A DNA stretch of 43,487 bases, from assembly GCA_029573015.1 (NCBI GenBank), contig JAKQHK010000101.1:1-43487 (forward strand). The letters run 5' to 3'. Under the pieces are notes generated by a model. It was not told the DNA's origin, made no database searches, and saw only the letters and a list, made by a program, of their open reading frames with translations. Of the stretch, positions 959 to 31,779 are shown one piece after another; within the stretch, counting starts at the first letter, position 1, and each line of letters opens with the position of its first letter. Position numbers and translations under genes: made by a program. The stretch comes from a bacterium (lineage in GTDB: Bacteria; Patescibacteriota; CG2-30-54-11).

Positions 959-1028
959 CGCCCCCAGCAGGACTTCCTTCCCCTTCGTCGCGTTGCTCCT
1001 CAGTGTCAGGATAAACTTCTCGTCCTGC
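959..1028 (-). repeat. tRNA-Arg(TCT) tail copy 2 with expanded T-arm
   Basis: On the minus strand this runs from GCAGGACGAGAAG, through a long insert, to GGAAGTCCTGCTGGG. That is the T-stem and part of the 3' acceptor strand of tRNA-Arg(TCT), with the 7-nt T-loop replaced by about 45 nt. The 3' end has decayed (GGGGGCG in place of GGGCGCACCA). It shares the CGAGAAG...GAAG framing with copy 1 (1131-1208). Confidence 0.6.
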
Positions 1029-1093
1029 TTGATACTACTACCCCGTTTTCTGATGGACCGCTCCGAGGAAAACGGTCCCCTTTCTTTTGGCGT

Positions 1094-1120
1094 CACCTTT
1101 TCTTTCTTAAAGAAAAGGTG
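1094..1120. repeat. Perfect inverted repeat, 12-bp arms
   Basis: CACCTTTTCTTT at 1094-1105 and its exact complement AAAGAAAAGGTG at 1109-1120 are separated by CTT. It lies 10 nt from tRNA-Arg tail copy 1. There is no T-tract on either side, so it is not a typical terminator. It is more likely part of the repeat field. Confidence 0.7.
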
Positions 1121-1130
1121 AAGGTATCAC

Positions 1131-1208
1131 TGGTGCGCCCAGCAGGACTTCCTACACTCCCCTCCGCCTTACGGCTCCGGCTCGCTTCAGGACAGGCTTC
1201 TCGTCCTT
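1131..1208 (-). repeat. tRNA-Arg(TCT) tail copy 1 with expanded T-arm
   Basis: The first 19 nt on the plus strand (TGGTGCGCCCAGCAGGACT) are identical to 1253-1271 of the true gene. They cover the encoded CCA, the discriminator, the whole 3' acceptor strand and the T-stem 3' strand. Past that, the T-loop is replaced by about 55 nt that return to AGGACGAGAAG (minus strand), a T-stem-like partner. The copy lacks the 5' half of the tRNA. It lies directly downstream of the real gene. Confidence 0.7.
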
Positions 1209-1252
1209 TATCTCAACTCACGACTCACAACTAACGACTCACGACTATCTTG

Positions 1253-1330
1253 TGGTGCGCCCAGCAGGACTCGAACCTGCAACCTACTGCTTAGAAGGCA
1301 GTTGCTCTATCCAATTAAGCTATGAGCGCA
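1253..1330 (-). tRNA. tRNA-Arg (anticodon TCT)
   Basis: The minus strand gives acceptor TGCGCTC / GGGCGCA, the anticodon arm ACTGC-CTTCTAA-GCAGT with anticodon TCT, the T-arm GCAGG-TTCGAGT-CCTGC and an encoded CCA at 1255-1253. It reads AGA/AGG codons. Two degenerate copies of its 3' end follow downstream (1131-1208 and 959-1028), with a low-complexity spacer of 'actcacgact' words between the gene and the first copy. Confidence 0.95.
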
Positions 1331-30690: not shown

Positions 30691-30826
30691 GCGTTTATCC
30701 TGTATATACCTGTATAATCAGCCTTTCCCATAGTACCGCAAGTCAGAAGCGGTTGTCCAGCGCGCAAATACCCTTGCAGAGCCAGGACGGGATTGGTAAA
30801 ATACTGTTTGTCGCATAAATAGGCGC

Positions 30827-30960
30827 GGGTCGCTAGCTTCAGATCATTCGATCTGATAAACAATCGGTAGTTAGTTGCCTCTTAAGCAATTGGTTCAGGG
30901 TTTCCGGTCATCCGACCGGACCGGGTCGTATGACCCGGCGAGTTATGTTTAATAACCCAC
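30827..30960 (+). pseudogene. tRNA-Lys-like relic with inserted hairpins
   Basis: It starts GGGTCGCTAGCT as in tRNA-Lys. It holds an insert with hairpin AGATC-ATTC-GATCT in the D-arm, then about 30 nt identical to the real gene (30873-30902, anticodon arm CTT included, through the start of the T-arm). Two hairpins follow in place of the T-loop (CCGGTC-ATCC-GACCGG and CCGGGTC-GTAT-GACCCGG), then GCGA and finally ACCCAC at the end. It is a full-length tRNA-Lys copy stretched by palindromic inserts. It lies 418 nt before the true gene. Confidence 0.8.
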
Positions 30961-30972
30961 TATGCTGTCTCA

Positions 30973-31254
30973 ATGTATTACGTCTATTTTCTACTCCTCG
31001 CCAATGGCGACATATACAAAGGTTCGTGTTCTGATGTGCAACAACGTCTGATTGATCATCAAAACGGTCGTGTCAAATCCACCCAGCATTATCTGCCATT
31101 TCATCTTATCGGATACGAATGTTATTATTTAAAAAGTGATGCGCTGAGAAGAGAAAAATTCCTGAAAACAACAGAGGGGCGTCGTTTACTCAAACAGCAA
31201 TATAAGGATATAATTAATCATCTGACCGAAAATATTTCCCAAACGGGTCGCTAG
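30973..31254 (+). CDS. Small GIY-YIG endonuclease domain protein
   Basis: 93 aa, one complete GIY-YIG domain. MYYVYFLLLANGDIYKGSC gives the paired strands (the second motif is YKG). VQQRLIDHQNGRVKST has the catalytic Arg and the usual H-N-G turn. LRREKFLKTTEGRRLLKQQY carries the metal-binding Glu. Such proteins (UvrC N-domain/YhbQ type) are nucleases; the role of these stand-alone forms is not settled. It starts 13 nt after the tRNA-Lys relic, and its TAG stop lies inside the true tRNA-Lys gene (10-nt overlap), so its last codons are tRNA sequence. A frameshifted relative lies beside tRNA-His (514-760). No Shine-Dalgarno is visible. Confidence 0.85.
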   Translation: MYYVYFLLLANGDIYKGSCSDVQQRLIDHQNGRVKSTQHYLPFHLIGYECYYLKSDALRREKFLKTTEGRRLLKQQYKDIINHLTENISQTGR

Positions 31255-31319
31255 CTCAATGGTAGAGCAGTTGCCTCTTAAGCAATTGGTTCAGGGTTCG
31301 AGCCCCTGGCGACCCACCA
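31245..31319 (+). tRNA. tRNA-Lys (anticodon CTT)
   Basis: Acceptor GGGTCGC / GCGACCC, anticodon arm GTTGC-CTCTTAA-GCAAT with anticodon CTT, T-arm CAGGG-TTCGAGC-CCCTG, discriminator A and encoded CCA at 31317-31319. It reads AAG. The first 10 nt are also the end of the GIY-YIG reading frame. Two long tail copies follow downstream. Confidence 0.95.
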
Positions 31320-31343: not shown

Positions 31344-31507
31344 ATCAGGGGCGAGAAGTAAGATCCCCTGCAATCCCGAAGCTCTGGGATGGAAGGGGAA
31401 GCCCCTGGTTTACCCGCCGAACCCTGAACGAAGTGAAGGGGAAGGCGGGCGACCCACCACAGATCTTAACGAATCGGCCAACGGACGATGAGTTTAGAAA
31501 TGTGGTG
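31344..31507 (+). repeat. tRNA-Lys tail copy 1 with nested hairpins
   Basis: T-stem-like hairpin CAGGGG-CGAGAAG...CCCCTG, a second hairpin ATCCC...GGGAT, then GAAGCCCCTGG (T-stem 3' strand). A third hairpin CCCGCC...GGCGGG is inserted before the acceptor strand GCGACCCACCA. The part from 31401 to 31507 recurs in copy 2 with one visible mismatch. Confidence 0.85.
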
Positions 31508-31592: not shown

Positions 31593-31779
31593 ATCAGGGG
31601 CGAGACGTACAGCCCTGAGTATAGAGAAGAACAAGGTCCGCTGTAGTCAGCCAAAGGCTGACGGAAGCGGAAGCCCCTGGTTTACCCGCCGAACCCTGAA
31701 CGAAGTGAAGGGGAAGGCGGGCGACCCACCACAGATCTTAACGAATCGGCCAACGGACGATGAGTTTAGAGATGTGGTG
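31593..31779 (+). repeat. tRNA-Lys tail copy 2 with nested hairpins
   Basis: Begins ATCAGGGGCGAGA like copy 1, but the middle differs (hairpin GTCAGCC-AAA-GGCTGAC). From 31673 it repeats 31401-31507 at an offset of 272 nt with one visible mismatch over about 107 nt, including GCGACCCACCA. Short ORFs across both copies are repeat translations, not genes. No gene is supported between 31320 and 32041. Confidence 0.85.

Follow-up and report, generated by a model that had tools for sequence, protein, structure and literature searches.

Mobile double-hairpin elements are known from fungal mitochondrial DNA, and so are homing nuclease genes that carry a replacement gene end. Among tRNA genes, the T-loop and the anticodon loop were reportedly described by Williams in 2002 as sublocations at which integrases insert. 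Small GIY-YIG proteins include Slx1, which acts on branched DNA, and the UPF0213 proteins, which to our knowledge are neither mobile nor linked to tRNAs. Also in fungal mitochondria, a free-standing nuclease gene has been found beside a duplicated atp9 (PMC6506933). In T-even phages, SegB is encoded by a free-standing GIY-YIG gene abutting tRNAs of many isotypes, and genome-wide mapping of the cuts made by SegB of T6 gave the motif RAWTSGAAC and placed peaks within tRNA genes (PMC13096335). The locus described here, in which a small GIY-YIG gene stands between a broken and an intact tRNA-Lys gene, is quite probably, judging from its sequence and those of its relatives, a minimal mobile (homing) element that targets tRNA genes and consists of a nuclease and a rescue tRNA.

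The window, by which we mean the whole stretch of 43,487 nucleotides analysed (contig JAKQHK010000101.1 of a member of the Patescibacteriota), carries this locus on its plus strand. An ORF of 93 amino acids (30973-31254), which matches the GIY-YIG nuclease family PF01541 of Pfam with an E-value of 1.5e-10, overlaps an intact tRNA-Lys(CTT) gene (31245-31319) in such a way that its TAG stop codon is U8-A9-G10 of the tRNA. This tRNA, called by ARAGORN and matched by Rfam RF00005 with 70.2 bits, is taken as the working copy. Upstream of the ORF stands a relic of tRNA-Lys with the same anticodon (30827-30904), which reaches from nt 1 to the T-loop and is recognized by two exact direct repeats of the intact gene, one of 13 nt (30826-30838 = 31244-31256, spacing 418) and the other of 30 nt (30873-30902 = 31269-31298, spacing 396); in 200 Markov shuffles of the region, the longest direct repeat was 13 nt. 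Neither ARAGORN nor Rfam calls the relic as a tRNA, 31245-31319 being the sole tRNA called there, and Rfam has no match besides this tRNA between 30300 and 31900. The D-loop of the relic is interrupted by a single hairpin, TCAGATC-ATTC-GATCTGA (30839-30856), with a loop of the type ATNC as in hairpin 1 of the twin hairpins described below. Its T-loop is broken by such a twin hairpin, TCCGGTC-ATCC-GACCGGA / CCGGGTC-GTAT-GACCCGG (30903-30938), which is evident from the sequence and from covariation in the family and is recovered by the covariance model R1 with an E-value of 7.6e-10. Behind it follows a stub, CGAGT (30939-30943), which by comparison with the stubs at loci L034-L045 is the 3' side of the T-loop, and after the stub the 3' strand of the acceptor is absent.

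The initial annotation of this DNA had already recognized the layout of relic, GIY-YIG gene and intact tRNA-Lys, which the exact repeats, the tRNA calls and the Pfam match bear out, and the 30 identical nucleotides that it reported in the relic are the longer of the two repeats. It had taken the relic for a stretched copy ending at 30960; the part derived from the tRNA stops at about 30904, the end at 30960 takes in sequence of other kinds, and the copy is not stretched but interrupted by the two hairpin inserts and then continued by the stub. In the same way, its description of the two copies as 418-nt direct repeats holds for their 5' ends, while the rest is shifted by the insert in the D-loop.

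More remains of the same tRNA lie beyond the intact gene. Comparison of repeats revealed a displaced 3' relic (31398-31459, plus strand), in which the 3' end of tRNA-Lys (GAAGCCCCTGG ... CGACCCACCA) is split by a 41-nt hairpin, and a second copy of it 272 nt onward (31670-31731, plus strand) in a 120-nt repeat of 98% identity. Outside the inserts, the incoming and the broken tRNA-Lys of the window are nearly the same sequence; thus, the insertion is recent, or it came from a close relative, or the two copies have been homogenised by gene conversion. The nearest relative, genome G001, has a tRNA-Lys (locus L005) of 93% identity over 71 nt, and we considered it as an empty site; it is unusable as such because no flanking gene there matches the window, and the neighbouring gene is absent from G001 and from genome G002. 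Some simpler views of the locus were also considered and rejected. TATAAT stands 30 nt upstream of the tRNA-Lys, and the nuclease gene might be suspected of harbouring a promoter for the tRNA in its 3' end; at 33 loci, however, the -10-like matches found there are no better than in shuffles (mean p 0.71). A group I intron with a ribozyme core and spliced exons is countered by the lack of an Rfam match other than the tRNA and by the downstream tRNA, which is whole and not a half. A target-site duplication of fixed length is countered by the extent of the repeats, which run from nt 1 of the tRNA to the T-loop and whose length tracks that of the tRNA (56-72 nt), and also by loci in which the inner and outer sequences differ. 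At another place of the window (963-1329, minus strand), the 3' end of tRNA-Arg(TCT) recurs twice behind the gene (CCCAGCAGGA on the plus strand; copies at 963, 1138 and 1260), accompanied by short inserts of the type CGAGAAG...GGAAGTCC, a type that is also present in L005 and L063. These repeats lack a nuclease gene and make up a second class of 3'-relic element.

What kind of protein does the ORF encode? Its catalytic residues are conserved, Y5, R25, H29, E49 and E61 being invariant in the alignment of the family, and together with the Pfam match and the fold they place it in the GIY-YIG superfamily. The AlphaFold (AF2) model has a pLDDT of 95; its best fold match in the PDB is the UPF0213 structure 1zg2, followed by Slx1 and the catalytic domain of I-TevI, and 1zg2 and 1ywl, both UPF0213, are the closest in the PDB by fold and sequence. 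The clade to which the window protein belongs has a signature of its own, SDAxRREKFLKTTEG. A chain of 93 residues has no room for a separate DNA-binding domain, and it would be a natural guess that the putative substrate is branched or cruciform DNA formed by the T-arm together with the twin hairpin. The gene lies outside introns and inteins, directly upstream of a tRNA and with a relic on its other side, as is the case for free-standing homing genes. No family for the protein was found in NCBIfam or PHROGs. An origin from phages or plasmids was considered and rejected: IMG/VR holds no relatives of the nuclease, collections of phages and of plasmids gave one marginal match each, and the exact pattern of the twin hairpin had no match in viral contigs. 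A second, more distant GIY-YIG gene is present in the window at 517-735 on the minus strand, between tRNA-Arg(TCT) and tRNA-His.

The arrangement recurs in genomes that are far apart. The 38 closest homologues of the nuclease, picked from 84,980 genomes by protein similarity only, come from CPR groups, Kiritimatiellota, Lentisphaerota, Cloacimonadota and Omnitrophota, and 35 of them have a tRNA gene within about 100 nt, the other three running off the end of a contig; by chance, one or two per hundred would be expected at an ordinary tRNA density, estimated as about 45 per Mb. The adjacent tRNAs are mostly tRNA-Ser, and tRNAs for Lys, Arg, Tyr, Gln, Gly, Leu, Thr, Ile, Glu, Pro and Met are also represented. 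A fragment of the same isotype is found in the flanks of 27 of these 35 loci, if a fragment is accepted only when its match to the adjacent tRNA exceeds that to 99% or more of the tRNAs for other amino acids. Typically it extends from nt 1 to the T-loop (1-72 in Ser, 1-57 in Lys, 1-67 in Tyr and 1-56 in Gly), and the size of the whole unit is about 100-420 nt. Loci L046, L055 and L069 have the mirror order, in which the intact tRNA and the nuclease gene are followed by the twin hairpin and a displaced 3' end. Among the 82 nuclease sequences placed in a tree, 39 rows make up the close clade (support 95/92), and 36 of these are linked to tRNAs of mixed isotypes; thus, the linkage has been kept while the tRNA has changed. 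The initial annotation had proposed to look for a tRNA beside other GIY-YIG genes and for a copy of it in the other flank, both of which are found, and it had named orthologous nucleases lying far from tRNAs as what would speak against its reading; none was seen in the close clade. Among more distant GIY-YIG relatives, about half are adjacent to tRNAs (19/30 in set S2 and 18/40 in set S3). In locus L035 (1771-2261), a tRNA-Tyr relic with its twin hairpin stands between the end of a first GIY-YIG copy and another GIY-YIG gene downstream, a tandem which suggests repeated insertion into a regenerated tRNA. The genes of a related GIY-YIG group follow tRNA-Glu, Gln, Tyr or Arg at a distance of about 115-170 nt (L154, L155, L161, L173, L175, L179 and L180), in most cases with no detectable relic, and possibly have a different target position.

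Where are the tRNAs broken? In the aligned relics, the usual site of breakage is GTTC^GA in the T-loop; the anticodon loop (CTC^GAAA, CTCC^GAAG) and the D loop are affected more rarely. The break is usually filled by a twin hairpin of about 40 nt, made of two tandem hairpins of about 20 nt each, and it is this structure in the T-loop of the broken copy, not the 418-nt repeat, that is the hallmark of the unit. In an alignment of 24 twin hairpins, 99% of the cells are paired and 13 of the 16 pairs have changed on both sides, a level of covariation that none of 500 shuffles reached. In the relics, 55-75 nt usually separate the hairpin from the GIY start downstream of it. If genomes are scanned with a covariance model of the hairpin alone, disregarding tRNAs, it is found in 29 of 287 genomes of the phylum, including several copies in the genome of the window itself; 26 of the 35 matches with E-values up to 1e-6 have a tRNA at a distance of 350 nt or less, and at least one of the nine without a tRNA within that distance is at a contig end. 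Some further observations concern the variety of these hairpins. In the same genome as the window, the tRNA-Ala(TGC) of an rRNA spacer (L103, contig C112, 1000-1800) is associated with a tandem pair of 96-nt units, each terminated at the T-loop by a twin hairpin; a 17-nt 5' relic, whose D-loop is filled by a different, 30-nt twin hairpin, lies upstream of them. Near other tRNAs, a shorter class with 6-bp stems, 3-nt loops and a length of 30 nt (L083 1896-1925, L090 1744-1773, L093 1453-1484 and L078 1410-1439) sits in the D or anticodon loops of relics, where it can be placed. Twin hairpins away from tRNAs occur in L213 and L212 (both at about 1501) and in L217 and L220 (both at about 1507). 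The flanks TTC/GAA of the hairpin in L213 match an unfilled site downstream of a tRNA in L219 (GGTTTCTTCGAACC), so that the target may be TTCGAA in hairpins generally.

It might be imagined that the twin hairpin is an independent palindrome of the REP or MITE kind, which enters hairpin loops and especially those of tRNAs, with the GIY-YIG gene and the tRNA duplications as passengers or as merely tolerated at such sites. Many twin hairpins indeed have no adjoining nuclease gene, some are at loops outside tRNAs, such as TTC^GAA in L213 and a terminator-like hairpin in L217, and single hairpins of the same type are found in D and anticodon loops. However, such a palindrome leaves unexplained both the near-constant adjacency of this GIY-YIG clade to tRNAs and the usual distance between hairpin and GIY start, and a replaced tRNA is often found even at hairpins that have no nuclease; we therefore regard it as unlikely. 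The initial annotation had counted relics in strains without the nuclease gene against an insertion. Such relics do occur, but by their anatomy they represent the same insertion in a shortened, non-autonomous form.

At many loci, one isoacceptor is represented by two different alleles, one in the broken outer and the other in the intact inner tRNA, as for Leu (L116), Ser-TGA (L117), Gly (L110, L136) and Ser (L075, L111), the T-stem usually differing as well; in the window, L037, L038 and L042, the two are the same or nearly the same. The clearest case lies downstream of rnhB, where the orthologous locus of tRNA-Ser(CGA) was compared among 12 genomes of one CPR family, which by sequence comparison represent filled and unfilled states of one site, as the initial annotation had recommended to seek. 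The sequences of the intact tRNA-Ser(CGA) at this locus form several classes that differ greatly, with identities down to 57%. The gene is plain, without hairpin or relic, in G261, G125, G288 and G291. In G236 and G158, a twin hairpin and a 3' relic stand behind a different tRNA, and these relics agree with the intact tRNA of G180 at 20/20 positions and with their own at 14-15/20. In G180 itself, the nuclease gene and a new tRNA, in this order, are flanked on either side by a twin hairpin; the 5' relic of G180 agrees at 35/35 positions with the intact tRNA of G293 and at 28/35 with its own, and its 3' relic resembles the class of G125, G261 and G288 (18-19/20) and also G158 (19). In G287, 11 nt of the G180/G291 class precede an unrelated tRNA, agreeing at 11/11 positions with that class and at 5/11 with its own. 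The tRNA-Ala and tRNA-Arg near this locus are also variable in the family, and for this reason the argument for replacement rests on the matches of the relics and not on divergence alone. Since the relics match alleles that are intact in sister genomes, the resident tRNA has been broken and replaced by another one of the same anticodon. As to the donor, near-identical copies of the replaced tRNA-Ser alleles were found only within the sampled family, and no identical tRNA outside it. Comparison across genomes strongly supports the core of the earlier proposal, namely that a nuclease-bearing segment entered a tRNA gene and that the tRNA was rebuilt; what needs correction is that the target is in many loci replaced and not only duplicated.

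From the anatomy, the break point, the conservation of the hairpin and the replacement of tRNAs, we infer the following course of cutting and copying. The nuclease would cut the resident tRNA gene in its near-palindromic T-loop (TTC^GAA), and repair of the cut would copy in the nuclease gene, a complete tRNA and the twin hairpin as one block. The function lost by the cut may be rescued by this new tRNA and, if the nuclease reads the stem, a tRNA with a differing T-stem would escape cutting, while the twin hairpin may protect the broken copy against renewed cutting. Where the nuclease gene was lost, the copies would persist as short relics marked by the hairpin. It is to be noted that the reverse complement of the SegB motif is GTTCSAWTY, that is, the T-loop consensus at the same spot where the relics are broken; the motif lends independent support to the putative cut site. 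Several points weigh against the homing reading: the intact tRNA keeps a T-loop similar to that of the broken one, the near-identical inner and outer tRNAs at several loci, that of the window included, also fit a local duplication, the linkage to tRNAs drops to about half among the more distant GIY-YIG relatives, and nine of the 35 strong hairpin matches are without a tRNA within 350 nt. In a wider and more tentative formulation, for which we would not claim even odds, the locus could be a natural cleave-and-rescue cassette of about 0.4 kb and a new kind of bacterial selfish element, in which a GIY-YIG nuclease of 80-95 aa destroys the resident essential tRNA gene at the T-loop and the tRNA of the cassette, which has the same anticodon, steps in for it. 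In that case, the twin hairpin would be the mark and possibly the recognition structure, and derivatives without the nuclease would persist or spread, so that tRNA genes of CPR bacteria would repeatedly be replaced by foreign alleles.

Could the short loci instead be decayed attachment-site remnants of integrase islands in the T-loop, with the GIY-YIG gene as a chance survivor? Islands of tyrosine integrases resemble them in that insertion is into the T-loop or anticodon loop, both among the known integrase sublocations, and in that a functional tRNA is kept with a displaced fragment at the far end; the displaced 3' ends look like attL/attR. Unlike such islands, the units measure about 100-420 nt only, fragments from both ends of the tRNA, 5' and 3', are displaced, and a whole tRNA of another allele is often brought in. 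No integrase gene was noticed in or beside the units at the loci inspected. In addition, relatives of the nuclease in phage, plasmid and viral collections are marginal at most, and decayed islands are accordingly an improbable explanation. Still less probable, in our opinion, is that the relic works as a leader RNA, a tRNA mimic with control over the nuclease or over the tRNA that follows. Its folding is much more stable than that of shuffled sequences (z -4.2), its stems are kept and the hairpins sit in loops, as such an RNA might; but across close homologues the relic ranges from 72/72 identical to absent, and it can be on the 3' side or without a nuclease, as would be expected of debris. 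A local tandem duplication of the tRNA, with the GIY-YIG gene between the copies by chance, would suit the loci with equal or nearly equal copies and is hardly credible in view of the recurrence across phyla, the constant break point with a conserved hairpin in it, the loci with two different tRNA alleles and the comparison at the rnhB locus.

If the homing element is real, essential tRNA genes turn over through replacement by foreign alleles in a large part of bacterial diversity, and what drives this turnover ranks among the smallest autonomous mobile elements proposed. Engineered cleave-and-rescue drives would then have a counterpart in nature, the presence of so many tiny GIY-YIG genes in CPR genomes would have a reason, and the twin hairpin in the T-loop would be a marker by which replacement events can be searched for.

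How does such an element stand beside the systems mentioned at the beginning? SegB differs from the window protein in its size of 221 aa and in being phage-borne, and no relic, twin hairpin or tRNA replacement figures in the available part of its description (PMC13096335). Homology to SegB of T6 was not detectable when the alignment of the family was compared by hhalign (probability 0.3%, 14 columns), and the window nuclease would thus work like SegB while standing outside the SegB family. From the small GIY-YIG proteins of the UPF0213/Slx1 type, its clade is set apart by its own signature and by its linkage to tRNAs. With the double-hairpin elements of fungal mitochondria it shares a tandem pair of short hairpins, supported here by covariation, and the dispersal of this pair in the genome; with mitochondrial nuclease genes it has in common that a truncated gene copy stands at the side of the nuclease. 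The fungal systems concern other genomes and other target genes; unlike them, hairpin, nuclease and complete rescue tRNA here form one recurrent bacterial unit. The literature searched, which did not extend to subscription literature, contained no account of this combination or of the arrangement in CPR bacteria. Within about 0.4 kb, the unit of the window type combines features that are otherwise met separately in SegB, in tRNA-borne islands, in double-hairpin elements and in mitochondrial nuclease genes.
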